Source of the DNA: Aquimarina longa SW024 | Lineage (GTDB): Bacteria > Bacteroidota > Bacteroidia > Flavobacteriales > Flavobacteriaceae | DNA length: 64,000 bases | Direction: 5' to 3' | Assembly (NCBI RefSeq): GCF_001401755.1 | Contig: NZ_AVQK01000023.1 | Coordinates: 62,001 to 126,000 of the forward strand | In this document: piece after piece, positions 16,200 to 58,386 of the stretch | Layout: every line of letters starts with the position of its first letter | How positions within the stretch are numbered: position 1 is the first letter of the stretch | Position numbers and translations under genes: made by a program | The notes under the pieces: model-generated | The model's database searches: none | Told to the model about the DNA's origin: nothing | What the model saw: only the letters and a program-made list of their open reading frames with translations

Positions 16200-16212
16200 T
16201 TTTCTTAAGCTG

Positions 16213-19659: not shown

Positions 19660-19676
19660 TCTTTTCCTTTTTTTTA

Positions 19677-19720
19677 AATAGACTTGATTAAGACATCCTA
19701 CTTATCAAGTCTATTTTTTT
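19677..19720 (+). terminator. Rho-independent terminator after the curlin-repeat gene
   Basis: AATAGACTTGATTAAG and CTTATCAAGTCTATT pair with one bulged T, followed by eight T. Confidence 0.75.
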
Positions 19721-19729
19721 TGATTTTTT

Positions 19730-19763
19730 TTGGAAATATAAAATAATACTCTACATTTGTAGA
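19730..19763 (+). promoter_or_regulatory. Promoter with overlapping BlaI/MecI-type operator
   Basis: TCTACATTTGTAGA (19750-19763) is a palindrome with TACA/TGTA half-sites, the core recognised by BlaI/MecI-family repressors. Inside it TACATTTG (19752-19759) fits the Bacteroidota -7 element TAnnTTTG, with TTG 19 bp upstream at 19730-19732. Another half-site-like TGTAGA lies at 19779. Repressor binding would block the promoter of its own operon. Inferred from sequence pattern only. Confidence 0.6.
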
Positions 19764-19786
19764 ATAAACTCTAATAATGTAGAACA

Positions 19787-33077: not shown

Positions 33078-33329
33078 GGACGGTCTTCGTAACATAGCGG
33101 ACAACAATATAAACAAGGCGGATGGTCTTCGTAACATAGCGGACAACGATATAAACAAGGTGGACGGTCTTCGTAACATGGCGGACAACAATATAAACAA
33201 GGCGGATGGTCTTCGTAACATAGCGGACAACAATATAAACAAGGCGGACGGTCTTCGTAACATGGCGGACAACGATATAAACAAGGCGGACGGTCTTCGT
33301 AACATGGCGGACAACGATATAAACAGGTA
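33078..33329. repeat. 42-bp tandem repeat array 2 (six units)
   Basis: Units begin at 33078, 33120, 33162, 33204, 33246 and 33288, each starting GGACGGTCTTCGTAACATRG and continuing CGGACAACRATATAAACAA. Variation is limited to a few purine transitions. On the plus strand it reads as 14-residue repeats KADGLRNMADNDIN; on the minus strand as RRPSALFILLSAML. A 109-codon minus-strand frame (33024-33353) spans it but has no homology support. Same 42-bp period as array 1, without spacers. Confidence 0.9.
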
Positions 33330-41979: not shown

Positions 41980-42546
41980 CTAATTCTTCTCTTTTTCTGA
42001 TGTTGATAATTTTACCAGTTTATCACTCATATAAGCAACTATTAACTCTTCTCTTCCTGTCTTAATAGGATGGTATTGAAAACCGCATGTTCCTTTTTCT
42101 ATTGTAAACTGATATTCTTTAGAATAACTTACGGAACTATCACCTAGCTCGTACTTTTCTCCTAGAATTTCCTGAAATTTTTCTAATAGTTTTTTTTCAT
42201 TGGCTCTGGATGGAAGTACTTTCATTTCTAAATACTGTATCTCATCTAGGTTGTCTTCTAAAACAAAAAACACGATGGTTTTTACGGGGATATCAAACAG
42301 ATATATTTCGTTCTTTTGTACATGTTCTCTACCTGAGTATGTATCTTGCAAGCATTCATAAACGATCATATCTACTCCATATATAGTTTCTTTCTTAGCA
42401 TTAAATAAGGGCATCTCTATTAAGGATTTTCCAGGATCTACTTTATTAATGATGTTAGAAATATCAATTCTATTTTGAGAAAACCCTAAAAATGTGCTGA
42501 ACATAATGAGTATCGATAGATATTGAAGATGTTGTGTTACTGCCAT
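41980..42546 (-). CDS. Secreted protein of unknown function, end of the VgrG island
   Basis: 188 residues with a signal peptide ending FLGFSQN. Mature part beta-rich and charged ([40 protein letters not shown]). No family recognised. It is the last gene of the minus-strand island, 16 bp after the truncated paralog at 42563, and unrelated by eye to that family. Periplasmic location fits an immunity or accessory function. Confidence 0.5.
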
Positions 42547-42562
42547 ATTGATTTGGTTTATT

Positions 42563-43093
42563 TTATATCACTGTTAAGGGATCTCCTTTTGTTTTACGTT
42601 GTAAACGAAAATCTAAGTATATCGTATCCTTAGGATCTTTTTTATTCTGTAGCCTAATTACTCCTTCTCCATCTACCTTATGTAATAACATTACCAATTT
42701 ACCATACCCCTGAAACTCTATTTTAAACGTTTCTGGTACTAACGGTTGTACTTCATACGCATTATTTTGTATAAGGCCTACAAATTCTTTTTGACGTAGT
42801 GTTTTTTCGTTAGTTTTATACAGTAAACAAGAGGTTATGAGCTCTTCTCGCTCTCTCACCAATGCTAAATATCCATTAATATCCCTGTTTTTGATAATTT
42901 TGTACATTGCCTTATACGTTTCTAACACTTCCTTTTGTATCTCTTTTTTTCTTATCCTTATACGCTGCTCTGAGATCAATAGATGAGCGCCACCCTGTAT
43001 ATGAAAATGGAACCTCGGCATCAAAAGTACTACGCCATTCGTATATCGGTAAGCCTTCGAGTTTGTTTGAAGTTTTTGGTTCATAGTTACCAT
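42563..43093 (-). pseudogene. Truncated, frameshifted copy of the two-domain lipoprotein at 44710
   Basis: Its last ~120 codons match the C-terminus of the 44710 protein at about 96% (IQKEVLETYKAMYKIIKNRD... KTKGDPLTVI). Upstream the match continues in a different frame because a T tract is one base longer (about 42945), and the 5' part is lost by a 579-bp deletion joining GGTTCATA to ACCATATAT. The signal peptide and N-terminal domain are gone. A new ATG in the wrong frame opens the residual ORF. Probably non-functional. Confidence 0.75.
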
Positions 43094-43116
43094 ATATCAG
43101 ATTTTAAAAATAATGC

Positions 43117-43602
43117 TTAAAAAACAAGTAACTTATGATCTAATATTGCTTCGCTAAAAAAGGTGTTTTGCGGAATATTAGGGTAGTCCTTAGTATGGTT
43201 TAGCGTAATCTGTCGATCACTTGTTTTCCATGTATATTCTTCTCCAAAATCATTTTCATAGACTTTAGTATTTGTTCCATATAGATCCTGTAAGGTGGTA
43301 TTATACTTTGTTACATTATCAATCCCTTTGGATTTTATAGTATATCCTACAATTTTACCTTGCTTGCAGAATACAAATAGGTCTTCTCCTAAAAAAGTAG
43401 TATGTCTAAAATCTGATTGTGGTAGCTTGTAATATGCAAAATAATTGTCTCCCTCTTTAGGGTATGTATCTAGCATCGCTTCTGATTTACCTATCAATTC
43501 TTCTACTATGATAGGATCTGATGAACAACTTAGTCCTATAGTGGTCAGTAAAACTCCTGTAGATGCTATAATTGTTGTTTCTATAAATTTTCTACGATGC
43601 AT
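43117..43602 (-). CDS. Small lipoprotein, copy 1 of a duplicated gene
   Basis: 161 residues. N-terminus MHRRKFIETTIIASTGVLLT resembles a Tat-like signal (RR-x-F) with lipobox GLSC at residue 26. The mature part has EEYTWKTSDRQITLNHTKDY and other beta-strand-rich stretches. Identical in amino acids to the gene at 45843. Located between members of the two-domain family, periplasmic, and duplicated with them; an immunity role for a secreted effector is the natural guess, but the family is not recognised. Confidence 0.6.
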   Translation of the reverse strand: MHRRKFIETTIIASTGVLLTTIGLSCSSDPIIVEELIGKSEAMLDTYPKEGDNYFAYYKLPQSDFRHTTFLGEDLFVFCKQGKIVGYTIKSKGIDNVTKYNTTLQDLYGTNTKVYENDFGEEYTWKTSDRQITLNHTKDYPNIPQNTFFSEAILDHKLLVF

Positions 43603-43635
43603 ATCTGTCGATGTTTATACTTCTAACTTATTTTT

Positions 43636-44463
43636 TTATATAATACTAAATCCTTTTTCTTTACTACGCATATGGAGTTTAGTATCAAACTCTACATTTC
43701 CTTGTGTTTTAGAATCAGGGCTTTTATACTGTAGTGCCGCACTACCATCTATACGAATTAAGCGAACTAACTTACCGTATCCCATTATTTCTAACTGTAA
43801 CGATGAAGCATCAAGTGGTACTATTTCTAATTTTTGATTAAATAGTTCTGTTGCTCCATTCATAAAACTTTTTTTGCGCTCCTCAGAGAAATAAAAGGCT
43901 TGCTCTTGCAATGCCATTTTTTCTTTAGATAACTCTAAGAATTTTGTTACATTATGAGATGCCATTACTGCATGTATCTGCCGATAGGTACTTAACACTT
44001 CTGCAAATAAATCTTCTTCTTTTATCTCGCTGAGATCTTCTGAGTTTTGCCAACCATCTAATACAAAAGGTAGTTCTACTTCTATCTCTGTACTAATCTC
44101 AAAAGTAGGGTAATTAATATTTTCACTTAATCCATCCCAAGGGGATTCTATTTTTGGATGAAATTGTGTTAATGTATTATCCCAATCTTTACTATTACAG
44201 ACATAAAATTCTATACCTAAATATGCATTGTCTTCTGTTAATGATTCTTCACCTTTTCTAGGTTTCATCTTACCTACTATTTTATACGTCCCACTCTGAA
44301 GTACAACTTGATTGATTGGAATAAATCCTGTTGATCTATCTCTTCCTCTTGTTTCTTCTCCTTTAAAAGTACTTATCAGCACATCATTTACATAAATTTC
44401 TGTTGTGCAATAAGAATTATGTCTTAATTGATAATATGGATTATCTAAATAATTCTTTTTCAT
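43636..44463 (-). CDS. Two-domain island protein, variant A (275 residues)
   Basis: No signal peptide. Residues ~1-100 form a divergent N-domain (EIYVNDVLISTFKGEETRGR; INQVVLQSGTYKIVGKMKPR), then FHPKIESPWDGLSENINYP begins a C-domain identical to that of the gene at 46362. The C-domain contains LSTYRQIHAVMASHNVTKFL and LEIMGYGKLVRLIRIDGSAA and shares its order with the 44710 lipoprotein (EVLETYRAMHKI...; IEFQGYGKLVMLLHKVDGE). The family is unknown to me. Position between lipoproteins and the OmpA-domain gene suggests an effector-associated protein. Confidence 0.6.
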   Translation of the reverse strand: MKKNYLDNPYYQLRHNSYCTTEIYVNDVLISTFKGEETRGRDRSTGFIPINQVVLQSGTYKIVGKMKPRKGEESLTEDNAYLGIEFYVCNSKDWDNTLTQFHPKIESPWDGLSENINYPTFEISTEIEVELPFVLDGWQNSEDLSEIKEEDLFAEVLSTYRQIHAVMASHNVTKFLELSKEKMALQEQAFYFSEERKKSFMNGATELFNQKLEIVPLDASSLQLEIMGYGKLVRLIRIDGSAALQYKSPDSKTQGNVEFDTKLHMRSKEKGFSII

Positions 44464-44476
44464 TTTGATTAATTTT

Positions 44477-44692
44477 TTAAGTGATGTATTGTTTCTTTAA
44501 AGGAAGTGTCTCTCCATCAATAACCTTTTTTTCTATCTTAAAATTACTACTCCACCATCCAACTTCACCTTTAATTTCTCCAATAATCATGACACCTGAA
44601 AATTTTAAAACAGGAATATCATCAACCAGAATTATTCCCGAACAATTTATACTAGGATATAACTCATAATAAGGTTTGCTTATTTGTCTCAT
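44477..44692 (-). CDS. Chimeric 71-residue ORF: N-terminus of the 275-residue family joined to the C-terminus of the OmpA-domain protein
   Basis: Residues ~6-32 (KPYYELYPSINCSGIILVDD) match the N-domain of the 46362 protein (KPIYSVYSTIYSSGTIKVND). From PVLKFSGVM on it matches the last ~50 residues of the 47192 protein (PVLKFSGVML... ELGWWKSSFKLEE). The two parts meet at a shared 22-bp stretch (ACACCTGAAAATTTTAAAAC + AGG) found at both 44592 and 47318. Recombination product, intact frame, function doubtful. Confidence 0.6.
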   Translation of the reverse strand: MRQISKPYYELYPSINCSGIILVDDIPVLKFSGVMIIGEIKGEVGWWSSNFKIEKKVIDGETLPLKKQYIT

Positions 44693-44709
44693 TATATAAT
44701 TAATTGATA

Positions 44710-45819
44710 TTATATTACTGTTAAGGGATCTCCTTTTGTTTTACGTTGTAAACGAAAATCTAAGTATATCATATCCTTAGGATCTTTTTTATTCTGTAGT
44801 CTAATTACTCCTTCTCCATCTACCTTATGTAATAGCATTACCAATTTACCATACCCCTGAAACTCTATTTTAAACGTTTCTGATACTAACGGTTGTACTT
44901 CATACGCATTATTTTGTATAAGGTCTACAAATTCTTTTTGACGTAGTGTTTTTTCGTTAGTTTTATACAGTAAACAAGAGGTTATGAGCTCTTCTCGCTC
45001 TCTCACCAATGCTAAATATCCATTAACATCCCTGTTTTTGATAATTTTGTGCATTGCCCTATACGTTTCTAACACTTCCTTTTGTATCTCTTTTTCCTTA
45101 TCCTTATAAGCTGCTCTGAGATCAATAGATGAGCGCCACCCTGTATATGAAAATGGAACCTCGGCATCAAAAGTACTACGCCACTCGTATATCGGTAAGC
45201 CTTCGAGTTTGTTTGGAGTTTTTGGTTCATAATCACCATCATATTCTTCTTGATGCTCTTCACTATATTTGGTTATCCATTGCTTATCACTTTGATTGAT
45301 TACAATTCCATTGTGCCCATTCATTTGGTTGTTATACGTTACCGTTTTTAGGTTTCTATCTCTAAAATGTGAAAAAGTTAATTTCATCTGTCCCTCTCCT
45401 TTTGGAAAAACCTCTACCCCATATCTAGGATACATTCGTACTTTTATTTCGTGAGTTCCACTAGTCAATAACAATTGATTGATATCATGATCTCCTGTCA
45501 TCCCTCCCCTTCTTGCTGTTATAGGTCCCATAAGTTTTAACAACAACACATCATCAACAAAAACCTCATATTGACATTGTCCACTATTAATATAAATACG
45601 ATTAGTACGTTCTTCTGTGATAGCAGTATCTATAGGAATAGGAAATGTTTTTTCTTGTATTTCTTTATTTTGTATACCTGTTCTGTTTTTCCAAAATTGT
45701 TCTTTTGTTGTTATCTGGGCTTTAGCTCCTTTAGAAAAACTGTGTTCCTTACATGATATGCATAATCCTATTACTAGTAGTAGTACTCCTATTGTACTAA
45801 TTTGTTTATAAATTACCAT
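44710..45819 (-). CDS. Two-domain island lipoprotein (369 residues)
   Basis: Lipoprotein signal ISTIGVLLLVIGLCISC. The N-domain (IYINSGQCQYEVFVDDVLLL; INQLLLTSGTHEIKVRMYPR) and C-domain (EVLETYRAMHKIIKNRDVNG; FKIEFQGYGKLVMLLHKVDG) are paralogous in order to those of the 43636 and 46362 proteins, though only this member has a signal peptide and a middle insert of ~90 residues. It thus marks the family as envelope-directed. Function unknown; possibly immunity proteins against, or cargo related to, the secretion machinery. Confidence 0.6.
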   Translation of the reverse strand: MVIYKQISTIGVLLLVIGLCISCKEHSFSKGAKAQITTKEQFWKNRTGIQNKEIQEKTFPIPIDTAITEERTNRIYINSGQCQYEVFVDDVLLLKLMGPITARRGGMTGDHDINQLLLTSGTHEIKVRMYPRYGVEVFPKGEGQMKLTFSHFRDRNLKTVTYNNQMNGHNGIVINQSDKQWITKYSEEHQEEYDGDYEPKTPNKLEGLPIYEWRSTFDAEVPFSYTGWRSSIDLRAAYKDKEKEIQKEVLETYRAMHKIIKNRDVNGYLALVREREELITSCLLYKTNEKTLRQKEFVDLIQNNAYEVQPLVSETFKIEFQGYGKLVMLLHKVDGEGVIRLQNKKDPKDMIYLDFRLQRKTKGDPLTVI

Positions 45820-45842
45820 ATATTAGATTTTAAAAATAATAT

Positions 45843-46328
45843 TTAAAAAACAAGTAACTTATGATCTAATATTGCTTCGCTAAAAAAGGTGTTTTGCGGA
45901 ATATTAGGGTAGTCCTTAGTATGGTTTAGCGTAATCTGTCGATCACTTGTTTTCCATGTATATTCTTCTCCAAAATCATTTTCATAGACTTTAGTATTTG
46001 TTCCATATAGATCCTGTAAGGTGGTATTATACTTTGTTACATTATCAATCCCTTTGGATTTTATAGTATATCCTACAATTTTACCTTGCTTGCAGAATAC
46101 AAATAGGTCTTCTCCTAAAAAAGTAGTATGTCTAAAATCTGATTGTGGTAGCTTGTAATATGCAAAATAATTGTCTCCCTCTTTAGGGTATGTATCTAGC
46201 ATCGCTTCTGATTTACCTATCAATTCTTCTACTATGATAGGATCTGATGAACAACTTAGTCCTATAGTGGTCAGTAAAACTCCTGTAGATGCTATAATTG
46301 TTGTTTCTATAAATTTTCTACGATGCAT
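45843..46328 (-). CDS. Small lipoprotein, copy 2 (identical to the 43117 product)
   Basis: 161 residues, amino-acid identical to copy 1 at 43117, including the RRKF start and GLSC lipobox. It begins 34 bp after the 275-residue gene upstream and ends 23 bp before the 44710 lipoprotein. Exact identity points to a recent duplication or ongoing gene conversion. Confidence 0.6.
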   Translation of the reverse strand: MHRRKFIETTIIASTGVLLTTIGLSCSSDPIIVEELIGKSEAMLDTYPKEGDNYFAYYKLPQSDFRHTTFLGEDLFVFCKQGKIVGYTIKSKGIDNVTKYNTTLQDLYGTNTKVYENDFGEEYTWKTSDRQITLNHTKDYPNIPQNTFFSEAILDHKLLVF

Positions 46329-46361
46329 ATCTGTCGATGTTTATACTTCTAACTTATTTTT

Positions 46362-47189
46362 TTATATAATACTAAATCCTTTTTCTTTACTACGCATATG
46401 GAGTTTAGTATCAAACTCTACATTTCCTTGTGTTTTAGAATCAGGGCTTTTATACTGTAGTGCCGCACTACCATCTATACGAATTAAGCGAACTAACTTA
46501 CCGTATCCCATTATTTCTAACTGTAACGATGAAGCATCAAGTGGTACTATTTCTAATTTTTGATTAAATAGTTCTGTTGCTCCATTCATAAAACTTTTTT
46601 TGCGCTCCTCAGAGAAATAAAAGGCTTGCTCTTGCAATGCCATTTTTTCTTTAGATAACTCTAAGAATTTTGTTACATTATGAGATGCCATTACTGCATG
46701 TATCTGCCGATAGGTACTTAACACTTCTGCAAATAAATCTTCTTCTTTTATCTCGCTGAGATCTTCTGAGTTTTGCCAACCATCTAATACAAAAGGTAGT
46801 TCTACTTCTATCTCTGTACTAATCTCAAAAGTAGGGTAATTAATATTTTCACTTAGTCCATCCCAAGGGGATTCTATTTTTGGATGAAACTTATGTCTTG
46901 ATTTTTTCCATTTATCTGAATCCGCTTCAGCTAAATAAAAATCAAGTGACATTACTTCTTCTTCTGTTATTGTTTTTTTATTTTTTCTAGGTAACATCTT
47001 GCCTACTACCTTATACTTACCACTTTGAAGTAAAACCTGATTAATAATAGTATCCCCACTATACCCTCCTGTACCATTTGTATCCTCTCCATACCAATCG
47101 ACTACAGGTACATCATTAACTTTAATTGTTCCAGAGCTGTAAATGGTAGAATAGACTGAATAAATGGGTTTTTCAAATTTGCTCATCAT
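46362..47189 (-). CDS. Two-domain island protein, variant B (275 residues)
   Basis: 275 residues (MM start; second Met at 47186 equally plausible). N-domain KPIYSVYSTIYSSGTIKVND and INQVLLQSGKYKVVGKMLPR is paralogous but clearly divergent from variant A; from FHPKIESPWDGLSENINYP onward the two proteins are identical. The stop of the OmpA-domain gene lies 2 bp upstream, so the two are likely translated from one message. Confidence 0.6.
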   Translation of the reverse strand: MMSKFEKPIYSVYSTIYSSGTIKVNDVPVVDWYGEDTNGTGGYSGDTIINQVLLQSGKYKVVGKMLPRKNKKTITEEEVMSLDFYLAEADSDKWKKSRHKFHPKIESPWDGLSENINYPTFEISTEIEVELPFVLDGWQNSEDLSEIKEEDLFAEVLSTYRQIHAVMASHNVTKFLELSKEKMALQEQAFYFSEERKKSFMNGATELFNQKLEIVPLDASSLQLEIMGYGKLVRLIRIDGSAALQYKSPDSKTQGNVEFDTKLHMRSKEKGFSII

Positions 47190-47191
47190 AT

Positions 47192-49816
47192 TTAATTTTC
47201 TGTTATATATCTTTTTTGCATGGTATAAGATTCCTCTTCTATTATTCTTTCTTCTAATTTAAAGCTACTTTTCCACCAGCCTAATTCCCCCTCTATTTCA
47301 ACTGATAACATAACACCTGAAAATTTTAAAACAGGTTTAATGAACATTCCTTTTTTGTCAGTGTCTATTATGAAATCACCTCCAAAATATCCATGTGCCT
47401 TAGCACTCGCTTTAAAAGATATAGAAATAGGTCTAATTATCATACTATTTGTTTTCCCTATTTCTGTACTGATACTCAACTCTATGATAACTCCCATTTT
47501 CCCAGAAATGGTAGTTTTTCCTTGCATATCAATACCATTTTTACTGTCAATTTTTAGAGCATCTACCATTATTTCTAACTCTCCATAAAATGTTGCTGTA
47601 AAAACAACCGTTGCTCCTAATTTTTCTAAACCGCCTCTAAATTTACTAATCAATCTTGCTGCGGCAGGATTTCCTGTAGTACCATAAGATACCGCTGTAA
47701 TTGCTGCTCCTATAATATCTATAATCACCTCAGCTCCTATAAGTGGTTTAAATCCAAATCCAACTGTCCCTGCTACAACAACATCTTCATTACTTTGTTC
47801 TAAAAGCCAAGAACCTACTACAGTGAACTTAGGATATCTAACATCAAAACCAATAGGAATTGCTGTTTTTTTAGCAGCACTTTGAGCAAAATTAATAGCA
47901 TTCTGTACAACATCAATAGATCTTGCTATTATTTTTGCTAAAGCTTCCATTTTTTTTGAGAACTCATTCGTAAAGCTTCTTTTTTCATTTCCATTATCCC
48001 ATTCTGCTCCTAGTCCTACTCCTATTGATATTGGAACTTTCCCCTGCTTATTCATTAACCATCTGTTATACCCTGCTTCTCTACTTTTTTCCTGATGTCT
48101 TGCAAAAACACTTCCTGAAGGCATATTTGTTGCTTTATAATTAGAAACATTAACTAAAAACTCAAAAGCCAATTCCCACTTAATATCTGGATATGCTTTT
48201 ACTTTTAGTACTGGATTCTTTTTATTAGAGTAGTATCTACATGTATTTACATATACTTCATATACTGCTGCTGCATCTAGTCTCCCATTGGCTACGCCTT
48301 CTATAAGATTCCATTTTGGCCAGATGTATTGTAATGGTGCGGGATTAGCTGCCGATAATGTGGATTGTATCGGAAAACGAATAGATTTTCCTGATCCTTT
48401 AAACGGCTTAGCATCTGGGGATTTAACAATAATATCTTTAGTGTGTTTTTCTGCATCTCTATAGCAATCGTCTACTTCTAATCCTACCACATCTAGAGTA
48501 ATGTGTTTAGGACTACTTGGTGCTATGGTATTATATACTACTGCATTGGCATCATGCCCTGCAAAGGTAAAAGAGATGTCTACTCTACGAGCATTTTTAT
48601 ATACTTTTTCATTACGGTTCTTGTAATCATCGGGGCTCTGTATGTTATACTCTCCGCGACCTGTACTAATAATTCGATCTGCATCTAATCCTCCTTGTAC
48701 AAAGAAATCTTTTACGGCATCTCCTCGTTTCTGAGAGAGTTCTTTGTTATAATCTTCTTTACCTATTACACAGGCATAACCGCTCATATGTATTGTAGTC
48801 CCCTTATGTTCTAATAAGAATCCGAGAATGTTATTTAATGTTTTTTGTGCTTCGGGAGATATACTGTAGTCGTTAAACTTATAGTATATGACACGGTTTA
48901 TTTTTTCGGAGGTTGCTTTTTTTCCTTTGAGTGCTTGTCCTTTTTTAAAAACAGTTACGGGTTTTGTTTCTGTTTTTCCATCCTTTACGGTAGGAGCGGT
49001 AATGATAATTTCATCAAATTTACAGGGTTCGAATCGCTCTGCATTGACTTCTGGCTCATAAATCTTGGTAGGGGTAAGGTTTTCTGAGGGTTTTACCTGA
49101 TTGCTAGATAACTCATTTTTGATTTCTAAAAATCGAGCGTGTTCCTCATCTTCTATATGATCTAATATGTAGTTCCCTTTAGCATTTTTTACTTTGATAT
49201 AAAATTTTTCTACAGGGTCTCTTCGTTTTACCATACCCATCCACATATTGGTATCTCCTATGGTATATAGTGCTTCTCCGTCTCGTACTTTAACATTTTT
49301 TTTGGTGACGATTAGATCGTCTTCTTTCATAGAAACCATGTTATATATTTCTATGGTAATGGTATCTCCATTTAATCCTTCTGTATTAAGCCATAGGTAT
49401 ACTAGATCTCCATAGGCTATGGGGCTGTGTCTGATATCACTACCTTGTGGTTGGCTTCTCCACTCGCTAGATTTGATCCTAGCTGGGGTGTATCCATTAA
49501 GATACATGCCTGATGGGTTTTTAAAGTCTCGATTCCCTGATCGACTGGCTTCGATATAAAAGGTATATGAGCCGCATAGTTTTTTAGGAAGTGTAAAGGT
49601 GTATAGTGCTCCTGATCCTTTATATATAATTGTTTTTCTATCATTGGACTGACGTAACCAATAGATGTTTTCTTGTTTTTCTTCTTCTGTAGTATTGGGT
49701 AGCCATTCTAATACCTCGAACTGTACTTCTTGATCTGGTTTGATGGTTACATTAGTGGTTGTCATGGAGTAATACAACCCTTTGGTCATTTGTATTGTTT
49801 TTACGCCTTTTGCCAT
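47192..49816 (-). CDS. Large OmpA-domain protein of the VgrG island, candidate effector
   Basis: 874 residues, no signal peptide. Residues ~1-260 are beta-rich (FEVLEWLPNTTEEEKQENIY; YTFYIEASRSGNRDF). Residues ~305-420 are an OmpA/MotB peptidoglycan-binding domain (VIYYKFNDYSISPEAQKTLN; HMSGYACVIGKEDYNKELSQ; KNARRVDISF). The C-terminal ~430 residues are a glycine- and hydrophobic-rich region ending ELGWWKSSFKLEE, of unknown type. Cell-wall binding by a protein exported without a signal fits a type VI cargo. It follows the DUF4280 gene by 6 bp. Confidence 0.65.
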   Translation of the reverse strand: MAKGVKTIQMTKGLYYSMTTTNVTIKPDQEVQFEVLEWLPNTTEEEKQENIYWLRQSNDRKTIIYKGSGALYTFTLPKKLCGSYTFYIEASRSGNRDFKNPSGMYLNGYTPARIKSSEWRSQPQGSDIRHSPIAYGDLVYLWLNTEGLNGDTITIEIYNMVSMKEDDLIVTKKNVKVRDGEALYTIGDTNMWMGMVKRRDPVEKFYIKVKNAKGNYILDHIEDEEHARFLEIKNELSSNQVKPSENLTPTKIYEPEVNAERFEPCKFDEIIITAPTVKDGKTETKPVTVFKKGQALKGKKATSEKINRVIYYKFNDYSISPEAQKTLNNILGFLLEHKGTTIHMSGYACVIGKEDYNKELSQKRGDAVKDFFVQGGLDADRIISTGRGEYNIQSPDDYKNRNEKVYKNARRVDISFTFAGHDANAVVYNTIAPSSPKHITLDVVGLEVDDCYRDAEKHTKDIIVKSPDAKPFKGSGKSIRFPIQSTLSAANPAPLQYIWPKWNLIEGVANGRLDAAAVYEVYVNTCRYYSNKKNPVLKVKAYPDIKWELAFEFLVNVSNYKATNMPSGSVFARHQEKSREAGYNRWLMNKQGKVPISIGVGLGAEWDNGNEKRSFTNEFSKKMEALAKIIARSIDVVQNAINFAQSAAKKTAIPIGFDVRYPKFTVVGSWLLEQSNEDVVVAGTVGFGFKPLIGAEVIIDIIGAAITAVSYGTTGNPAAARLISKFRGGLEKLGATVVFTATFYGELEIMVDALKIDSKNGIDMQGKTTISGKMGVIIELSISTEIGKTNSMIIRPISISFKASAKAHGYFGGDFIIDTDKKGMFIKPVLKFSGVMLSVEIEGELGWWKSSFKLEERIIEEESYTMQKRYITEN

Positions 49817-49822: not shown

Positions 49823-50317
49823 TTATTTAACAGATTCTATTATACCACTATCAGCAGGGGCTGTAGTACTCATATCATTCGTATTTACCATAGGGTTTAA
49901 CTGTGCTTGTGTATCCTCATCGGCATTGCTCATATTTTGCTGTCCTGGTTCTGCAATCTGCCCGTGATTAGTGATTTCTACACAGGGTGATCCTGCAATA
50001 GCACAGGTGGCTTTGCTGTCTTCTATGAGTATATTTCCTCCGTTTTTTAGTATGGCATCTTCATAGGCTCCTTGCCATTCTGTAATCATTGGTTGGCAGG
50101 GTTTATAACTGCTTCCCATTGGTTGTAACTTACATTGTCCAAAGGTTTTTGCCTCGAAGGGTTGTCCGATCTCTAATGTTGTAGCGATTAGTTTTTGGCT
50201 TCCGTCTTTATCATTGGCATATTCATTGGTATGTGAGCTTACTTTTAATTTATCTGGTGCAAACCCATGCTGGCACTTGCAGAGCGCCCCTTGTACTACT
50301 ATGTGTTTTTCGCTCAT
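49823..50317 (-). CDS. DUF4280 (PAAR-like) protein
   Basis: 164 residues. The DUF4280 pattern is clear: MSEKHIVVQGALCKCQHGFA, QPFEAKTFGQCKLQPMG, CQPMITEWQGAYEDAILKNG and SKATCAIAGSPCVEITNHGQ with four conserved Cys. DUF4280 proteins act as PAAR-like spike tips and are frequent next to LysM and effector genes in Bacteroidota contractile-injection loci. Here it lies between a LysM protein (12 bp) and the OmpA-domain candidate effector (6 bp). Confidence 0.85.
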   Translation of the reverse strand: MSEKHIVVQGALCKCQHGFAPDKLKVSSHTNEYANDKDGSQKLIATTLEIGQPFEAKTFGQCKLQPMGSSYKPCQPMITEWQGAYEDAILKNGGNILIEDSKATCAIAGSPCVEITNHGQIAEPGQQNMSNADEDTQAQLNPMVNTNDMSTTAPADSGIIESVK

Positions 50318-50329
50318 AATCTTATTTTT

Positions 50330-51508
50330 TTATGAAAACAATGTTTTCCAAAATGATTTTTTCTTTGTTTCTGTTTCTTCTTCGTCTCCTGTAATGAGTT
50401 TTGGATGACGTTTGGTTTCTACAATATCATCGATTTCTGAAATGGATATCGATGCTGTTTTTGGGGTGTCTAATGCTAGGTTACAACTCATATATGCGGA
50501 TTGTATCGTATTACCCTGCGGAGATAAGAAGTATACGGCTCTATAAATTCCTTTTACTGGGGTACTGCTTTTTACTATACTAGATGGGAAGTCTATCTGG
50601 TTTTTTAATTCTGATTTGCTTCTGGGATCGGTACACTTACCATCAATTTCTATTTTTATTCGGTCATTTTTTATAAATCTATGGACTTGTTTATCTACGG
50701 TATATTCTACAGATTTAGTATTGGGTATCACCGGAAAGTCTACTGTATTGTTTAACTCGAAATGATCATTATAACTGGTGTATATGTTATTAAAGTATAT
50801 GCTGTAAAACCAATCGTTTTTTAAATAATAAAACAATAGGTTTTTGTCGCTTAGGGTTTGCTCAAAGAGTTCAACGTATTTTTGGGAGACAGAACCTTTA
50901 TAATAGTCTAATTGGGCTTTTTTATGTGTTTTCCACCTTTTTAATATCGCTTTATGGTTTTGAATATCTAATAGTAGCCCATTGGTATCAATTTTTAGTA
51001 CTAATGGATATAGTACTTCTGTACAGGCTACTGCCATTTCATCTGCTACTAGATTAGGGGCTTTATCATTGATAAAGGTTTGGGATATTTTGTCTATGGA
51101 TAGGTAGTTATACTTTTTGTTATTTTCTGGATAGTATCGAATGCTTATTTTATATTTTATGGTGGTTTCTGTAGTTCCTGATTGTATTGTTTTTAGTACT
51201 CCATAGGTAATATCTTCTGTTGGGATTTCTCTATTAAGCTTGCCGTAGTACCTAGTTTTTATAGTTTGTGGTTCTGGCTCATCGGTGTCGAGCCATATTT
51301 CTTTACCGTCTCGGAGTCCATATCCTTCTGGTGGTAATACGATCTCTTGTAAAAATTCTGGTATACGGGTGGTTATAATATGTTGGTATATTTCTGTTCT
51401 CTTATTATGGTACTGTTGTAACTCCTCTACATCTAATTCATTGACTTTGGCAATGGATTGAAGGGTATCTCCTCTTTTAATTTTATATGTGCGATATATT
51501 CCTGTCAA
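50330..51508 (-). CDS. LysM-domain protein of the VgrG island
   Basis: 392 residues without a signal peptide. LysM domain at residues ~6-50 (YRTYKIKRGDTLQSIAKVNE). The remainder has a charged middle and ends DIVETKRHPKLI... KKSFWKTLFS. In contractile-injection loci a LysM protein usually precedes the DUF4280 gene and binds peptidoglycan or the spike. The rest is unknown. Confidence 0.75.
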   Translation of the reverse strand: MTGIYRTYKIKRGDTLQSIAKVNELDVEELQQYHNKRTEIYQHIITTRIPEFLQEIVLPPEGYGLRDGKEIWLDTDEPEPQTIKTRYYGKLNREIPTEDITYGVLKTIQSGTTETTIKYKISIRYYPENNKKYNYLSIDKISQTFINDKAPNLVADEMAVACTEVLYPLVLKIDTNGLLLDIQNHKAILKRWKTHKKAQLDYYKGSVSQKYVELFEQTLSDKNLLFYYLKNDWFYSIYFNNIYTSYNDHFELNNTVDFPVIPNTKSVEYTVDKQVHRFIKNDRIKIEIDGKCTDPRSKSELKNQIDFPSSIVKSSTPVKGIYRAVYFLSPQGNTIQSAYMSCNLALDTPKTASISISEIDDIVETKRHPKLITGDEEETETKKKSFWKTLFS

Positions 51509-51514
51509 TGGTTT

Positions 51515-52213
51515 TTACGATTTTGGTGAAAAATAGTGTTTCGCAATATCTTCTTCATTTTGCCATATATAATGATTTTTAAAATTTTTATATGTCATTA
51601 TAGTGTTACCACTATATAGGTGGTTTTTATCTATTCCTATGGTGGTTTCCCATTCTGATTTAGCTCCTATCACATTCGTTGTTCTAAAGGTTGCTATATC
51701 AATATCGTGTAATTTTTCTCCCCTCCAATATATAGTATCACCTACCTGTATATAGGCTCCTCCTAGAATCTTACATTCAGTGATATCTCCTGCTTTAAAC
51801 AACTTAGGTTTAGAAGAATGCATGTATTGATATATGTATATATGATTCTTGTCTCTAAAATAATTATTAAGTGGATTAGTGATATAATACTCGTTTTTAA
51901 TCTTCGCTTTGCTTTCTTCTGTATTATAAAGTACATCAAAGGTTTTTTGATCTATTACTTCTGCTAGCTTTTTACCACTGTTATCTAATGATGATTCATT
52001 AATATGTGTGTAAAAAACAGAATCCTCTTTTATATAATATCCATCTTGTGTATTAGATAGTTTCGTATAGTTTGGAATTTTAAAAACAAGATTCTTATTA
52101 GCATCTATGGTTAACAAGTTTTTATTCTTAATTGTACTCTTTTTTTGGTCTACACAAAAGGATAGTGTTAACACGAGTATAATGGGTAATATTATTTTTT
52201 TTAATAAGCTCAT
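51515..52213 (-). CDS. DKNYY-type lipoprotein
   Basis: 232 residues with lipoprotein signal IILPIILVLTLSFC. It repeats Asp-Lys-Asn-His-aromatic units (YFRDKNHIYIYQYMH; GIDKNHLYSGN), the pattern of DKNYY-domain proteins, which are common as secreted partners of polymorphic toxins. Located between the small secreted protein gene and the LysM gene, same strand. Confidence 0.6.
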   Translation of the reverse strand: MSLLKKIILPIILVLTLSFCVDQKKSTIKNKNLLTIDANKNLVFKIPNYTKLSNTQDGYYIKEDSVFYTHINESSLDNSGKKLAEVIDQKTFDVLYNTEESKAKIKNEYYITNPLNNYFRDKNHIYIYQYMHSSKPKLFKAGDITECKILGGAYIQVGDTIYWRGEKLHDIDIATFRTTNVIGAKSEWETTIGIDKNHLYSGNTIMTYKNFKNHYIWQNEEDIAKHYFSPKS

Positions 52214-52214
52214 A

Positions 52215-52751
52215 TTATAAATCTCTGTTAGTATTTCGTTTCTTTAATAATCGCTTTATATATGTCTCAAACTCTGGGGTCATTTTTCCTAAAAACAAGC
52301 ACGGGTCTATTGTTACATTTTGATCTGTTTTTTTCTCACAGTTTTCTTTTTTAAGTTTTAGATTACCTGTACTCATACTAATTGTAATATGCTGTACCAC
52401 TATAGTATTAGTATAAAAATTAATTTCTATATCAGTATTGGTATCTAATGCGTGCGTTGCATCTATTTTTTTATGAAGTTTTTTAAACAGTTTACTGATT
52501 TCGTTTTTCGTTAATGTGTACTCTCCAACTTTTTTATGTATCGTTTTTTTTTCTTGTTGTATTTCTAATTTGTCAAATAATAAAGAATTGGGCACACTAG
52601 CAGTTTTATCCTGTACGTAATAATAAGAGATAACTGCTTTATCAAATCCCTCATTTTTAAAAAAATCGATAGTGGATGACTGCTGTCCATTAAGCTCTAC
52701 GACTATTACTAGTAGTAAGATTAGATGTGGTATGATTTTTTTAGGTTTCAA
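52215..52751 (-). CDS. Secreted protein of unknown function, VgrG island
   Basis: 178 residues with a signal peptide (IPHLILLLVIVVELNGQ). Lys-rich helical middle (KLEIQQEKKTIHKKVGEYTL) and a conserved-looking Cys pair (CEKKT and DPCLF). It lies 1 bp from the DKNYY gene on one side and 13 bp from the 52765 lipoprotein on the other, so it is co-transcribed with both. Not recognised. Confidence 0.5.
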   Translation of the reverse strand: MKPKKIIPHLILLLVIVVELNGQQSSTIDFFKNEGFDKAVISYYYVQDKTASVPNSLLFDKLEIQQEKKTIHKKVGEYTLTKNEISKLFKKLHKKIDATHALDTNTDIEINFYTNTIVVQHITISMSTGNLKLKKENCEKKTDQNVTIDPCLFLGKMTPEFETYIKRLLKKRNTNRDL

Positions 52752-52764
52752 GGGTTTTTATATT

Positions 52765-53325
52765 CTATTTTTCAGAAATTTTATATTGTTTTTTTATCGC
52801 GTTATATAACCGTACTCTGTTTGGATAATTGACATGTGCATGGTTTGATTTATTAAATAGCATGGATATAAAAACATTATCTACTCCATGTATATTTTTT
52901 CTTTTAAATTCTTGAAAACTTACCTTTTCTGACGTTCTAAATGTAGTGTACATCATTTGTTGTATCGGTAGTGTATTGTCTACAACTTGTAATATATTTA
53001 GGGCTATATCTCCTTTTCTTAGAGGTACTTCTCCTGCATAGGTAATGGATGTAGTGGTCGTATCTTTTAACATCTCTACCAAATCTGGGATATGTTTTAG
53101 GGTTACAAAATCCAAACACCTCTCCATATAATCTTTATTTTTTACGGCTACTTTACTCCCTCTGTATTGCTCATTGAATTGTATTGGTAGCATTGAAAAA
53201 TGTTCTATACTGTCTAGAAGGGTTTTATTATTTTCTATTAGGTTTTCTGTTATTTTTTTTTGATTCTGACTTTTACAGTTTAAAAAACTAAAGAATATAA
53301 GACTAAGTATTAATGTACTTCTCAT
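52765..53325 (-). CDS. Lipoprotein, candidate immunity to the caspase-like protein
   Basis: 186 residues; signal LILSLIFFSFLNC. The start at 53325 overlaps the stop of the caspase-like gene by four bases (ATGA), i.e. tight translational coupling. Mature sequence has LLDSIEHFSMLPIQFNEQYR and DNTLPIQQMMYTTFRTSEKV. No family recognised. Coupled expression with a candidate effector and envelope localisation make immunity the best guess. Confidence 0.55.
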   Translation of the reverse strand: MRSTLILSLIFFSFLNCKSQNQKKITENLIENNKTLLDSIEHFSMLPIQFNEQYRGSKVAVKNKDYMERCLDFVTLKHIPDLVEMLKDTTTTSITYAGEVPLRKGDIALNILQVVDNTLPIQQMMYTTFRTSEKVSFQEFKRKNIHGVDNVFISMLFNKSNHAHVNYPNRVRLYNAIKKQYKISEK

Positions 53326-54140
53326 AGTGGGAATTTTTTCATATAATCCATTGCATTAAGAGTAACGGTATTAATATTATTATGGTTCAAAGCTATATTT
53401 GCTGGTAGCATCTCTCCATCTGTGTAAACATTTTCTCCATTCTTATCTGTTTTAAACATTGATCCAGCACCAGTTCCTTTACCTACTAAGGCGTATACGT
53501 TTCCTTTCCCTACTGTTTCTGCAAATTCCTGAGCAAAGGAGCCTTTTGGATCTTCCATATAAGGTTGATTACTTAATACATGATCTCCAGAAGATGTTAA
53601 TTGCCCACCTGCATTACATCCCCAAAAATAGATTTCACATCCATCTGCGAATGAGGTTATTGCTAGCTCCGTTAGTTCTGTTGTTTGAGTACTTGCTGGG
53701 ATATATACATTTTCATGAATTTCTACTCTTCTGAGGTCTCTTCCTCCATCCTGAACCTCGTCTAACCAATTAATAGTATCTCCATCATATTCTACCCCAT
53801 CAATGGTACGCTTACCTGTAAATCCTCCTAAGTTTATTCCATGTTGCCATGCATGAGAGTAGATGTCTAATCTTTTGATTTCTGTCCTAGATTTTATTTT
53901 ATTAAAAAAATCTTTATCTGTAGGGCAAAAAAGAACTTCGAAGTTGCCATCAGTATATTGTGCTTTATTAACCTCATTCCTGCCTTCTGCAACTAGCTTA
54001 AAAGCATCTCCTGCATTATGCCCTGAATATCCTGGGGCTAAATACCCACTACCATATAATACTAAGTATGTTTCTGTTTTAACCTCTTCTTCTCTCTCAA
54101 TAGTTTCTATTTCTCCAAATACTACTCTAGCAGCCGCCAT
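53322..54140 (-). CDS. Candidate effector with caspase/CHAT-like His/Cys pair
   Basis: 272 residues, no signal peptide. A mixed alpha/beta core with IKRLDIYSHAWQHGINLGGF (H96, H100) followed ~75 residues later by EIYFWGCNAGGQL (C175) and then SFAQEFAETVGKGNVYALVG. H-G...G-C-x-A-G-G with a fA...v.A..G helix is the layout of the caspase/gingipain-type (C14, CHAT, DUF4347-like) fold, where His and Cys are the dyad. Located two genes after VgrG. Fold assignment is from motif order only; substrate unknown. Confidence 0.55.
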   Translation of the reverse strand: MAAARVVFGEIETIEREEEVKTETYLVLYGSGYLAPGYSGHNAGDAFKLVAEGRNEVNKAQYTDGNFEVLFCPTDKDFFNKIKSRTEIKRLDIYSHAWQHGINLGGFTGKRTIDGVEYDGDTINWLDEVQDGGRDLRRVEIHENVYIPASTQTTELTELAITSFADGCEIYFWGCNAGGQLTSSGDHVLSNQPYMEDPKGSFAQEFAETVGKGNVYALVGKGTGAGSMFKTDKNGENVYTDGEMLPANIALNHNNINTVTLNAMDYMKKFPL

Positions 54141-54297
54141 TACTAATCACTTTTTTGTTACTAATTAGATTAAGATCTCCTTCTGAGGCTTCTACAATCA
54201 TACGATTTGCATTTTTATATAACGTACCTCCTACAACTGCCTCGTATTTATTTTCTACTCTTATGGTGTAGTTGTTTGCTTGTCTTGTTATCGCCAT
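54127..54297 (-). CDS. 56-residue protein between VgrG and the caspase-like effector
   Basis: ATG at 54297, stop at 54127. It reads MAITRQANNYTIRVENKYEA, then GGTLYKNANRMIVEASEGDL and a short tail ending in Cys. It starts 2 bp before the end of VgrG and its last 14 bases overlap the start of the caspase-like gene in another frame, a layout that couples translation of all three. The E-A-S-E-G-D-L-N-L-I stretch echoes the beta-helix repeats at the VgrG C-terminus. A small adaptor or chaperone is plausible; no family recognised. Confidence 0.55.
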   Translation of the reverse strand: MAITRQANNYTIRVENKYEAVVGGTLYKNANRMIVEASEGDLNLISNKKVISNGGC

Positions 54298-54299
54298 CT

Positions 54300-56135
54300 C
54301 TAAAATAATTTACTTTTTTCTGAACTATTTATCCGTACTGACTTAGTACTCTGCATGGTCATATTTTCTTCTGCACTAAAGAGTGATATTTCTTTTGCAT
54401 ACTCATCAGAGATATTGGATTGCCTACTAAAATTAGTGTCGATAATATCTTGACGATTATTTGATGTTTCTCTCATATCTCCAGAGGCGCTTAATAACAT
54501 ATCTTTATTAGCTACTATAGAGATATTTTCTCCTGCTCCCTGAGCCATCATTTCTCCTGCACTGATATTAATATTTTTACCGGCTGTCATGGTAATATTT
54601 TCTCCTGCAGTGATATTAATGTCTTTTAATGCATTGATACTTATGGTTTCTCCTGCGGTATCTATAACGATATGATTTCCTTTTTTATCGGTTATGGTGA
54701 TTCTTTCGGAATTACGAATATCATTAAACTCTAATGTATGTCCACTTCTGGTACGAATTGCCTTGATATCATTGTTTTGTGTTCTCCAATTACTTGGTTT
54801 TTTAGTACCATTGTATAAAGCTCCTAGTACATATGGATGCTCTGCATTTCCATTTTCAAATCCTACTAAAACCTCTTCTCCTAGCTCTGGGATAAAATGA
54901 AATCCTTTCTCTCCTCCTGCATGTGGGGTAACTATTCGTATCCATGGTGTCATCCCACCCATAGGTTTTTGCCAAGGAAATTGTACTCTAATTCTACCCA
55001 TTGAATTAGGGTCTGAGTTTTCTACTACAGTTGCTACTTGTGTATCACTTTTTGGATATGCATGTATATTGGCATTAGGATATATATTACCTTCTGCAGT
55101 TACGGCTTCAAATTTATTTTGATATTCTCCATTCTCTGTATTGGTATGGATTACTTTAATAACTCTATAAACTCCATAGTCTGTTGCATCTCCTCTAATG
55201 GCAATTGTTCCTCCTATACATACTCCTGGATTGTCACTAACTCCTGCAATAACCACTTGTTTGATATCTGTAGCTTTTTTTTGTTGTTCTACATGAGAGT
55301 CTAATCGTCGTCTCAGGTTTGGATCATTATAAGAGTTTACATAAACATTTGTCTCTTTGGCAAAAATCTCAGTACTTTTTTTACTTACAAAACTATTAAA
55401 CCCGTTTAGATCAGAGTTTACTTGTGATGTAGCTGCATTATAGTGTTCATCTATAAGGTAATCATTCGTAAAATAGTTATAATGATTGGATGAAGGTTTT
55501 AAATTCATCGAGAATTGCTGCAAGTCATGACCATATATAAGAGGGATAGGGTCGTTATTCTCTGGGGTTCCAAAAACTAATGCTTTTCCATCATAATAAA
55601 ACCATTGCCCATATTGTGCTGCTAATCGACTGGCATATCTAAAAGAGCTTTCATTAGCTTGTACACTATAATGTATCGTATCAGAATAATTAGGAGTAAA
55701 TTTAGTCTCTAATTTTGATCGATCATATCCCTGAAAGTTTTTTTCTAAAATCTCTGTAAGATTGATATCACTATGAGACTCATAATGTGGTCCATCATCT
55801 GTAATGATACTACAACTATATCCCTGGATTACAACGATATCACCATCTTGTGCATGAAATCCTTTTAGATTATTAACATTAGTTACAACTCCTTTAAACT
55901 CTAGCTGCTTATATCTAGACAAATTAACAATAGAAGAGACTTGTATTATTAATGTTTCTCCAAGAAAGTTTCGTGTTTCTGAAGCTAATTCTCCTATCAA
56001 TGCTTCTAAAGCATCCATACGACATATTAGTTTGAAAGAATGATGTGCATCTATATTTTGCTCTAGAGTAAACTCTTTAAAAGTCTTAATAAGCTTGCCT
56101 CCTATAAAAATCTGTGTATTGGTTTGTAATGCCAT
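54300..56135 (-). CDS. vgrG: VgrG (TssI) spike protein of type VI secretion
   Basis: 611 residues from the ATG at 56135 (MALQTNTQIFIGGKLIKTFK); an ATG 36 bp earlier would add 12 residues. The gp27-like base region is followed by the gp5 OB-fold (VVENSDPNSMGRIRVQFPWQ, MTPWIRIVTPHAG, FIPELGEEVLVGFENGNAEH, PYVLGALYNG). The C-terminal beta-prism repeats are NALKDINITAGENITMTAGK and INISAGEMMAQGAGENISIV. It heads the minus-strand island, with no tss sheath/baseplate genes in the window. Confidence 0.9.
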   Translation of the reverse strand: MALQTNTQIFIGGKLIKTFKEFTLEQNIDAHHSFKLICRMDALEALIGELASETRNFLGETLIIQVSSIVNLSRYKQLEFKGVVTNVNNLKGFHAQDGDIVVIQGYSCSIITDDGPHYESHSDINLTEILEKNFQGYDRSKLETKFTPNYSDTIHYSVQANESSFRYASRLAAQYGQWFYYDGKALVFGTPENNDPIPLIYGHDLQQFSMNLKPSSNHYNYFTNDYLIDEHYNAATSQVNSDLNGFNSFVSKKSTEIFAKETNVYVNSYNDPNLRRRLDSHVEQQKKATDIKQVVIAGVSDNPGVCIGGTIAIRGDATDYGVYRVIKVIHTNTENGEYQNKFEAVTAEGNIYPNANIHAYPKSDTQVATVVENSDPNSMGRIRVQFPWQKPMGGMTPWIRIVTPHAGGEKGFHFIPELGEEVLVGFENGNAEHPYVLGALYNGTKKPSNWRTQNNDIKAIRTRSGHTLEFNDIRNSERITITDKKGNHIVIDTAGETISINALKDINITAGENITMTAGKNINISAGEMMAQGAGENISIVANKDMLLSASGDMRETSNNRQDIIDTNFSRQSNISDEYAKEISLFSAEENMTMQSTKSVRINSSEKSKLF

Positions 56136-56171
56136 AGTATTGTATTGGTTAGCGTGTAAAATATCGATCAT

Positions 56172-57114: not shown

Positions 57115-58095
57115 TTAATCTCCATGAGAAAGGCAGCTTTTTTTATTTCTATTTGCAAAAACATGTGTGTTTTTTAATGTTCCTAAAACTGATAAAGATC
57201 TCTTACTCTTTTTTGTAATATTCTTTCTAATATGATTTCTAAATTTTATCATTTCTTTATCATCATACATTATCTTTATTTTTTGCTCTACTCTATTATT
57301 TACGTTTACTTTTACTCCCCCTGATCTGATTACAAACTCAGTAAAGACTTCTGCTATATCTTCTCCTGGATTGGTAGATGCATACGGGGTCACATATCGT
57401 TCTTTATATTTATTATAAAAATTCATTTTTGCAGTTTCACTATTCGAACCTTTGAATTCTCCCCATATATCTGCCCAATGATTTTGATATAATATATTGA
57501 TGTTAGATTTTTTTCTTGAACACCCTTCTCCTGTAAAAAAATTAGTACACTCATCTTCTGATATAGTAGAGTTTACCTGTGCTTTTTCTAGGGTAATAAT
57601 ATGTCCTAATTCGTGTATAATAGTATATGTTATTTCACCACCACTGTCAAAGATTCCATTATAATAAGCATCATCTACAGCTATCCCCATTTGCCATTTT
57701 GATAAATCATTGCTATTGGACACTACATACCCTGCACTATCGCCATTACCAAAATAAATCATAAACTCGCTCATCTTAGATCTATACTCTATTGGAACAA
57801 TCTTTTTTACCAAATTCCATACCTGTTGATGCTTTTTAGTATCTTTTTGGAACTCTAAAAATTTCCCTTTTACTTTAAAATCTTTTTCTTTTATAATATG
57901 ATCTCCATCAACTTTATATAGAGTTATAAATTTTTCTTCTTTTTTAACTATACCTCCATCTACATCCGTGTTTTGCTCTGATACAGGTATAATTGCATCA
58001 TCATCTTTTTTACATGATTGAATAGAAATCATTACAATCCCTAAAAAAATGATTATTACACAATTTAATATCCTTAGCTTTTTCGTTATACTCAT
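57115..58095 (-). CDS. Lipoprotein with a zinc-protease HELGH motif
   Basis: 326 residues from the ATG at 58095; an ATG at 58134 adds 13 residues before the signal. Lipoprotein signal VIIIFLGIVMISIQSC. In the catalytic region, EITYTIIHELGHIITLEKAQ holds HExxH, and about 95 residues later PGEDIAEVFTEFVIRSG supplies a candidate third Glu ligand, the arrangement of gluzincin-like secreted zinc proteases. About 300 bp before the ECF sigma gene, divergent from it. Substrate unknown. Confidence 0.7.
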   Translation of the reverse strand: MSITKKLRILNCVIIIFLGIVMISIQSCKKDDDAIIPVSEQNTDVDGGIVKKEEKFITLYKVDGDHIIKEKDFKVKGKFLEFQKDTKKHQQVWNLVKKIVPIEYRSKMSEFMIYFGNGDSAGYVVSNSNDLSKWQMGIAVDDAYYNGIFDSGGEITYTIIHELGHIITLEKAQVNSTISEDECTNFFTGEGCSRKKSNINILYQNHWADIWGEFKGSNSETAKMNFYNKYKERYVTPYASTNPGEDIAEVFTEFVIRSGGVKVNVNNRVEQKIKIMYDDKEMIKFRNHIRKNITKKSKRSLSVLGTLKNTHVFANRNKKSCLSHGD

Positions 58096-58386
58096 ATCCA
58101 ATTCTTTTTTCACAAACAACAAGTTGTTTAGCAAACACCCTATTATTTATTTTCTTTTTTTTAATATCATTTAAATATTTTTTAGAAAAAATATAGGGTA
58201 AATGGCTTCTTTACTGTTGTTATTACAAATGGATATAGTACCCCTAAAAAAGATTAAAAAATGAATACTATCTTAGTATAGAAATGGCTTTAGCTTTTCA
58301 ACATTAAGACACTGTAAAACAATAAATTAAAAAAATATTATTTAAATTTATTTAAATATCTTAGTTTAAAAAATGTAAGCTCTCAT

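Follow-up and report, generated by a model that had tools for sequence, protein, structure and literature searches.

Domain-level mosaicism in a putative type VI immunity array of Aquimarina longa and a possible specificity cassette across the toxin–immunity boundary

Introduction

How can a toxin and the immunity protein that guards against it change specificity without the cell killing itself? The question is raised by a locus in the genome of Aquimarina longa SW024 (assembly GCF_001401755.1) that lies in a 64,000-nucleotide stretch of contig NZ_AVQK01000023.1 (positions 62,001–126,000), referred to here as the window, whose own coordinates are used throughout. The locus contains two copies of a nearly identical block, each carrying most of a gene for a 275-residue protein and a complete lipoprotein gene. 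A sequence-only reading of the window had noticed the duplicate and proposed that it belongs to an effector/immunity system in a VgrG island, with a fixed C-domain, exchangeable N-domains and diversification under conflict. We denote the window genes A, B and C and their downstream counterparts A', B' and C'; L numbers are the loci compared, and C numbers are contigs of the A. longa genome itself. On balance, we consider it probable that the locus is a module of the type VI secretion system of subtype iii (T6SSiii) with an older unit downstream, that gene conversion homogenized the block, and that the N-domain of A' was kept different for a toxin type since lost.

Results and Discussion

An identical block that is probably younger than the repeat around it

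The genes follow one another on the minus strand in the order VgrG, other small genes, a LysM-type gene, DUF4280, an 874-residue effector, A, B, C, a short chimeric frame, A', B' and C' (Table 1), and A and C fall into one family. Exact comparison of the two copies of the block (43117–44163 and 45843–46889, 1,047 bp each) reproduces what the sequence-only reading had counted, with a single mismatch, 44130 A against 46856 G, that is silent (codon 112, TTA/CTA, both Leu). A chance origin of this identity is excluded by its length. Between A and A', codons 95–100 all differ and codons 101–105 are identical, which places the break at codon 101, where it had been expected, and the N-domains (residues 1–100) are 37% identical, as distantly related as had been claimed. 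At its other edge the block ends with the lipoprotein stop codon, and the bases just beyond (43115 and 43116) are not those at 45841 and 45842. Similarity extends downstream of this edge at 96.5% (42557–43097 against 44704–45244), and the duplicated unit is larger than the 1,047-bp block. The 176-residue open reading frame found there, C', is a 5'-truncated, frameshifted copy of C with one inserted base; on account of this truncation and inserted base, and of 7 nonsynonymous against 3 synonymous codon differences from C across 129 codons, C' looks decayed. Between C and A' lies the chimeric frame (44477–44692), the start of which matches the immunity model (about 27 residues resembling the start of the 275-residue protein) and the remainder of which is 55% identical to the tail of the 874-residue protein over 47 residues (E 1e-11). 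An origin of the chimera by microhomology was considered and is not established, as the toxin and the chimera have CCTGTT at the junction and A has only CCTGT.

The two parts of the repeat differ in divergence. At the synonymous divergence of C and C' (3 differences in 78 sites), 7.9 synonymous differences are predicted in the block and 1 is observed (P = 0.003), so that the block is probably younger than the C/C' duplication, with the rate set by just three synonymous differences in 129 codons. A younger block in turn suggests gene conversion, with the diverged N-domains as one limit and the truncation of C' as the other. The near-identical block and its sharp break bear out the recent recombination that the sequence-only reading had claimed, and homogenization within the window array is evident. 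Judged by its sequence, the downstream A'–B'–C' unit is an older, partly decayed module. We propose that it derives from a module whose toxin allele was a different one and survives only as the tail. Recent gene conversion would have copied the C-domain of A together with B onto A' and B', or the reverse, and would have ended where the N-domains were too different to pair and near the truncation of C'. A' would have kept a different N-domain, proposed to recognize the lost toxin type, and the cell would thus stay protected against relatives still using that toxin.

Two other histories of the downstream unit have to be weighed. In the first, A–B(–C) was duplicated recently in tandem, an incoming module then replaced the toxin tail and the downstream A N-domain by a crossover in A at codon 101, and the incoming toxin was later deleted. 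Such a course accounts for the sharp edge at codon 101 and for a type-2-like motif in the chimera tail beside a type-2 N-domain (types are defined below), and the 96.5% similarity of C and C' shows that a duplicated C existed. After a single duplication, however, the block and C/C' should have diverged equally, which the deficit of synonymous differences in the block (1 against 7.9, P 0.003, at a rate taken from 3 differences in 129 codons) speaks against. We regard this history as unlikely, though not remote. That A'–B'–C' is mere debris, held identical by conversion and with no present role for A', strikes us as doubtful: the decay of C' and the loss of the second toxin would fit, but A' retains an intact frame of 275 codons, and its N-type is found in Chryseobacterium beside full-length or long toxin frames (L095, L099, L172).

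A candidate effector–immunity module of a type VI secretion system

The C-terminal domain of the 874-residue effector is homologous among effectors that precede the same partner family, the family of A and C, and on this basis it was assigned as the toxin candidate. The partner family is present in 31 of 66 Aquimarina genomes. Within the A. longa genome, a search with A finds 22 places and a profile search 30, and many of these members stand in tandem arrays of proteins of about 300–350 residues, mostly behind large effectors on other contigs. Five A. longa effectors that precede family members show mutual local similarity, which is partly weak, and the window effector can be aligned at its C-terminus with those of L011 and L018; the complete window effector occurs once in its own genome. 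A scan of named genomes for the toxin domain, made with the one pattern [KN][AVI]YPDIKW, returned 70 loci in Aquimarina, Chryseobacterium, Flavobacterium, Tenacibaculum, Zobellia, Sinomicrobium, Olleya, Pedobacter, Mucilaginibacter, Apibacter, Porphyromonas and others.

The VgrG island noted by the sequence-only reading is a recurrent setting. In the window, VgrG, LysM and DUF4280 lie upstream of the effector within 49823–56171, and the order VgrG, LysM, DUF4280, toxin, partner recurs across related loci with few exceptions. Among hand-picked Aquimarina partner loci, the toxin is present in 38 of 39 and a spike gene in 36 of 39; conversely, the partner is present at 68 of the 70 loci selected by toxin. 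These two sets have nine loci in common, and L061, an extension rather than a partner locus, is left out. The least biased of the partnership tests is co-occurrence across 149 genomes of the taxonomic family at a threshold of 1e-10. Among the matches listed, the partner occurs in 12 genomes and the toxin in the same 12 (A. longa included), and in all 12 a toxin match lies within 1 kb of a partner match. The effector/immunity interpretation is well supported by this synteny and exact co-occurrence.

As for the secretion system, the A. longa genome has 16 matches to the Bacteroidota Hcp (TssD, PF17642) and none to the canonical sheath protein VipB (PF05943), in keeping with T6SSiii, which is described as the only type VI system reported in the phylum (PMC10781749). 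An auxiliary effector–immunity module of T6SSiii is the assignment we consider probable for the locus, and the toxin is probably injected into rivals. The effector would be carried on VgrG and the PAAR-like DUF4280 protein, its OmpA-like domain probably retaining it in the periplasm of the target, and its C-terminal domain would be the toxin, as its position and partner indicate. A and C are very probably immunity proteins, given the arrangement of the locus and the established behavior of such loci, and B may be a second, lipid-anchored partner. The lipoprotein was taken to be part of the module by the sequence-only reading, and B does belong to a second linked family (L2) of proteins of about 160–250 residues that forms arrays in some loci. 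Three Flavobacterium loci (L116, L117, L118) contain four to five L2 genes in tandem near the toxin. At L060 (G051), a 422-residue immunity-family protein adjoins a 151-residue L2 protein, possibly as an orphan pair, with no toxin or spike gene within the 19 kb examined.

Remnants of toxins accompany the immunity genes. Toxin fragments are found in 16 of 110 loci with immunity genes, some of these being contig ends (9 duplicate loci were left out of this count, of the lipobox count and of the array-pair comparison, both given below). The 3' ends of older effectors stand between immunity genes in the window and also at L108, L144, L051 and L074. The L144 array of Apibacter adventoris (9776–20156) contains seven immunity genes interspersed with three toxin fragments, which is, with L069, the largest number per locus examined. 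At L049 (11301–12365), a 354-residue open reading frame joins the middle of a toxin to the C-terminus of an immunity protein and matches both models, in the reverse order of the window chimera. On the A. longa contigs C6, C22, C24, C35 and C51, related immunity arrays stand at contig ends, probably broken by repeats in the assembly; four of them follow whole or partial copies of one effector type, and C6 and C51 have 923 bp in common at 99.6%.

A partner family of this kind might instead act as a chaperone, adaptor or regulator of the effector, which we judge improbable. Tandem divergent paralogues behind one toxin, and paralogues beside toxin remnants, are the behavior of immunity genes, and an adaptor needs neither. 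It is true that A has no evident signal peptide, and that a crude lipobox pattern occurs in 18 of 75 short members (≤290 residues) and in 49 of 92 long ones, so that the sites of action seem mixed.

The exchanged domain differs among arrays

We compared paralogues from the same locus with at least 45% identity (41 pairs in 20 loci, pairs within a locus not being independent). A fixed C-domain with an exchangeable N-domain, the general pattern suggested by the sequence-only reading, holds for the A/A' pair but fails as a rule: in 3 of 41 pairs (the window, L048 and L101), identity in the N-domain falls more than 20 points short of that in the helical segment, and the helical segment is lower than the N-domain in 26 of 41. 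The N-domain is thus mostly the steadier part, which counts against our interpretation of A', and the N-domain as the generally exchangeable part is not borne out. On contigs C35, C3 and C21, the arrays have a steadier N-domain and vary in the helical segment, and in the L049 array the difference lies in the middle, between two nearly identical ends. Diversification under conflict, put forward by the sequence-only reading, is here too an inference. The mosaics of L048 and L101, two further genomes, break at about the same domain border as that of the window. Although this is a draft genome of 67 contigs with related arrays at contig ends, an assembly error is very improbable, as it would not produce two different N-domains and is opposed by the distinct flanks, the one base difference, the similar mosaics in those two genomes and the reasoning that two direct-repeat copies separated and flanked by unique sequence can be joined in a single order using all pieces.

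N-domain type and the end of the toxin

Unsupervised clustering of A-type N-domains into four groups separates type 1 (A and eight others), type 2 (A', L095, L097, L099, L108), type 3 (L100, L102, L124) and L105 alone. With three groups, types 1 and 3 merge, and with two groups only L105 stands apart. The N-domain of A' is nearer to those of L095, L097, L099 and L108 than to that of A, while the C-domains of A and A' are identical. We asked which part of the adjoining toxin follows N-type in 8 type-1 and 4 type-2 loci with an adjacent toxin (L100 and L102 were left out of this test only). The contrast between types is strongest at toxin residues 773–826 (rank 1 of 495 relabelings) and 799–848 (rank 6 of 495) and weaker to both sides (ranks 44 and 49 of 495); further upstream in the toxin it is not evident (best rank 33 of 165). 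Within the immunity protein, the contrast ends at about residue 115. A partial Mantel analysis of 13 nonredundant loci in 14 overlapping windows, controlled for the rest of the toxin, gives r of 0.56 and 0.58 (p 0.0003) between N-domain identity and toxin 773–826 and 799–848. These covariation tests omit close Chryseobacterium relatives (L084–L086, L088, L090, L091, L093, L094) and loci in which the A-type gene does not adjoin the toxin (L105, L107, L124).

Two further observations point to the same segment. In Chryseobacterium, at toxin 783–826 and immunity residues 1–115, L095 and L099 (both type 2) are clearly closer to each other than to type 1; elsewhere the resemblance is about equal, with small differences both ways, in this one type-2 pair. 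A two-residue insertion after toxin residue 806 is present in 4 of 4 type-2 and 0 of 8 type-1 toxins, and six further loci fit the pattern, namely L172 (type 2, with the insertion) and five type-1 loci without it, for totals of 5 of 5 and 0 of 13. Nineteen loci were read for this extension; in 13 of them the immunity protein duplicates one that the set already contained, and the five type-1 additions are closely related to the set. The match of N-domain type to toxin residues ~773–848 suggests that the N-domain may contact the C-terminal part of the toxin.

We therefore put forward, tentatively and as a possibility only, that the recognition pair forms one contiguous cassette of about 610 bp straddling the gene boundary, made up of the last ~100 residues of the toxin and the immunity N-domain and flanked by the conserved toxin core and the immunity C-domain. 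One homologous exchange would swap both specificities, and gene conversion of the C-domain would keep a multispecific array working.

Several results weigh against this proposal. The immunity C-domain also correlates with the toxin, at other segments and, with r of 0.33 (p 0.02), at 799–848; when the rest of the toxin is not controlled for, the C-domain reaches r of 0.64–0.67 against 0.43 for the N-domain in all three toxin regions. The insertion at 806 is also present in both type-3 toxins (L100, L102). The loci are few and not independent, as L172 resembles L099 and several type-1 loci are close relatives. The chimera tail has the type-2-like state in one motif, but so do 2 of the 8 type-1 toxins (L098, L103); by identity the tail is nearest to L096, a type-1 locus (0.66), followed by L108 and L101 (0.64), and it stops short of the 806 insertion site. 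Finally, a 258-residue subfamily (37 pairs reduced to 27 nonredundant loci) gives no comparable N-domain signal at the toxin end, and whole-protein co-divergence dominates there. In 13 windows, r for the N-domain is 0.15 (p 0.03) at 841–899 and 0.25 (p 0.03) at 521–576, and the general form of the cassette idea is not supported in this subfamily. It is possible that linkage hides the signal where recombination inside the module is lacking, which is an excuse made after the fact.

Relation to known systems

The colicin E regions offer one precedent, in which the immunity gene adjoins the toxin part that its product binds and both evolve fast. The window locus is like them in this adjacency and differs in that the immunity proteins of colicins are single-domain. 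Type VI immunity arrays with a shifted effector end have been described in Vibrio cholerae, in an account that argues against duplication there (Kirchberger 2017, PMC5361080). As described, those arrays resemble the window in having one intact effector, several immunity genes behind it and the shifted 3' end of an older effector; the window differs in its paralogues with an identical C-domain, in toxin domains of one family and in exchange at the level of domains. Experiments on the immunity protein RdnI led to the proposal that a variable N-terminal part does the binding and that the C-terminal part is conserved, and separate domains are cited for Tri1 (eLife RP90607, PMC12483513). The likeness lies in a two-part immunity protein whose variable part binds the effector and whose conserved part has a separate role. 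The effectors are other ones, RdnE being a nuclease, and the evidence there is experimental, in contrast to sequence alone here.

Polyimmunity loci, too, are tandem paralogous immunity genes kept as a stock against non-kin toxins, and are said always to be free of intervening toxin genes or cassettes (Zhang 2012, PMC3482391). Because a toxin tail (44477–44692) stands between its immunity genes, the window locus is not a polyimmunity locus in that sense. The orphan immunity clusters of Bacteroidales known as rAID (PMC12247911) likewise hold divergent orphan immunity genes in Bacteroidota, but those are described as SUKH-domain proteins associated with a recombinase, and here another family stands beside its effector. 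The array with toxin remnants is of a known kind; the domain-level mosaic is the new part, as is, possibly, the cassette across the gene boundary.

The families themselves resemble little in the collections searched. The toxin domain, A/C and B have no convincing match in Pfam, NCBIfam, PHROG, PADLOC or PDB sequences, in searches that did not set every protein against every library and whose matches were limited to the OmpA, DUF4280, LysM and VgrG parts or were weak. On the question of an Imm-NTF2 fold, the best match is a weak one by sequence profile to the CaMKII association domain (E 0.18), which is NTF2-like. NTF2 and carbohydrate-binding folds were considered from such weak matches and are not claimed. 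Plasmid records searched with the toxin and phage records searched with A gave no match, and no publication on the toxin, immunity or L2 families was found among the papers listed in the open-licence literature searched.

Layout of the locus and other features

Beyond the features of Table 1, a 188-residue protein (41980–42546) has no relatives among the proteins of the compared loci. A 339-residue lipoprotein-like protein at 57115–58134 has a HELGH motif and is possibly a metallopeptidase, judged by eye. Two 42-bp tandem repeats lie elsewhere in the window, one of 5.9 copies inside a short repetitive frame (33078–33325) and one of 4.6 copies inside a repetitive 94-residue frame (15884–16078).

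Table 1. Features of the locus in window coordinates, in minus-strand order
Feature	Coordinates	Strand	Evidence and remarks
VgrG spike protein, 623 aa	54300..56171	-	Pfam Phage_base_V 1.4e-23, DUF2345 1.6e-7; NCBIfam vgr_GE 7e-35, slightly below cut-off
LysM-type protein, 392 aa	50330..51508	-	LysM 8.4e-4, under Pfam cut-off; kept ahead of DUF4280 in related loci (synteny)
DUF4280 (PAAR-like) protein, 164 aa	49823..50317	-	Pfam PF14107 1.5e-18
Effector, 874 aa	47192..49816	-	OmpA-like domain 311–405 (OmpA 6e-15); C-terminal toxin-candidate domain ~512–874
Proposed specificity cassette, from toxin residue ~773 through immunity codon 100	46890..47500	-	Spans the gene boundary; the type signal is concentrated within it
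A, immunity-family protein, 275 aa, N-type 1	46362..47189	-	
Identical block, copy 1 (A codons 101–275, spacer, B)	45843..46889	-	
B, lipoprotein, 161 aa, second linked family (L2)	45843..46328	-	Lipoprotein signal judged by eye
C, immunity-family lipoprotein, 369 aa	44710..45819	-	Lipoprotein signal judged by eye
Chimera, 71 aa	44477..44692	-	Immunity N-terminus ~27 aa and toxin tail ~44 aa; putative trace of a lost second toxin
A', immunity-family protein, 275 aa, N-type 2	43636..44463	-	C-domain identical to that of A
Identical block, copy 2	43117..44163	-	
B', lipoprotein	43117..43602	-	Identical to B
C', decayed copy of C	42563..43093	-	

Conclusions

The locus brings together three linked families, toxin, immunity and lipoprotein, for which scans of Pfam and NCBIfam returned no convincing entry and which extend across Flavobacteriia and a few other Bacteroidota. 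If the cassette proposal is true, the specificities of toxin and immunity protein could be swapped together by one homologous exchange. With conserved and recognition parts of the immunity protein that appear to have different histories, and with N-types that appear to track one segment of the toxin, the question of how both can change specificity without self-killing becomes testable.

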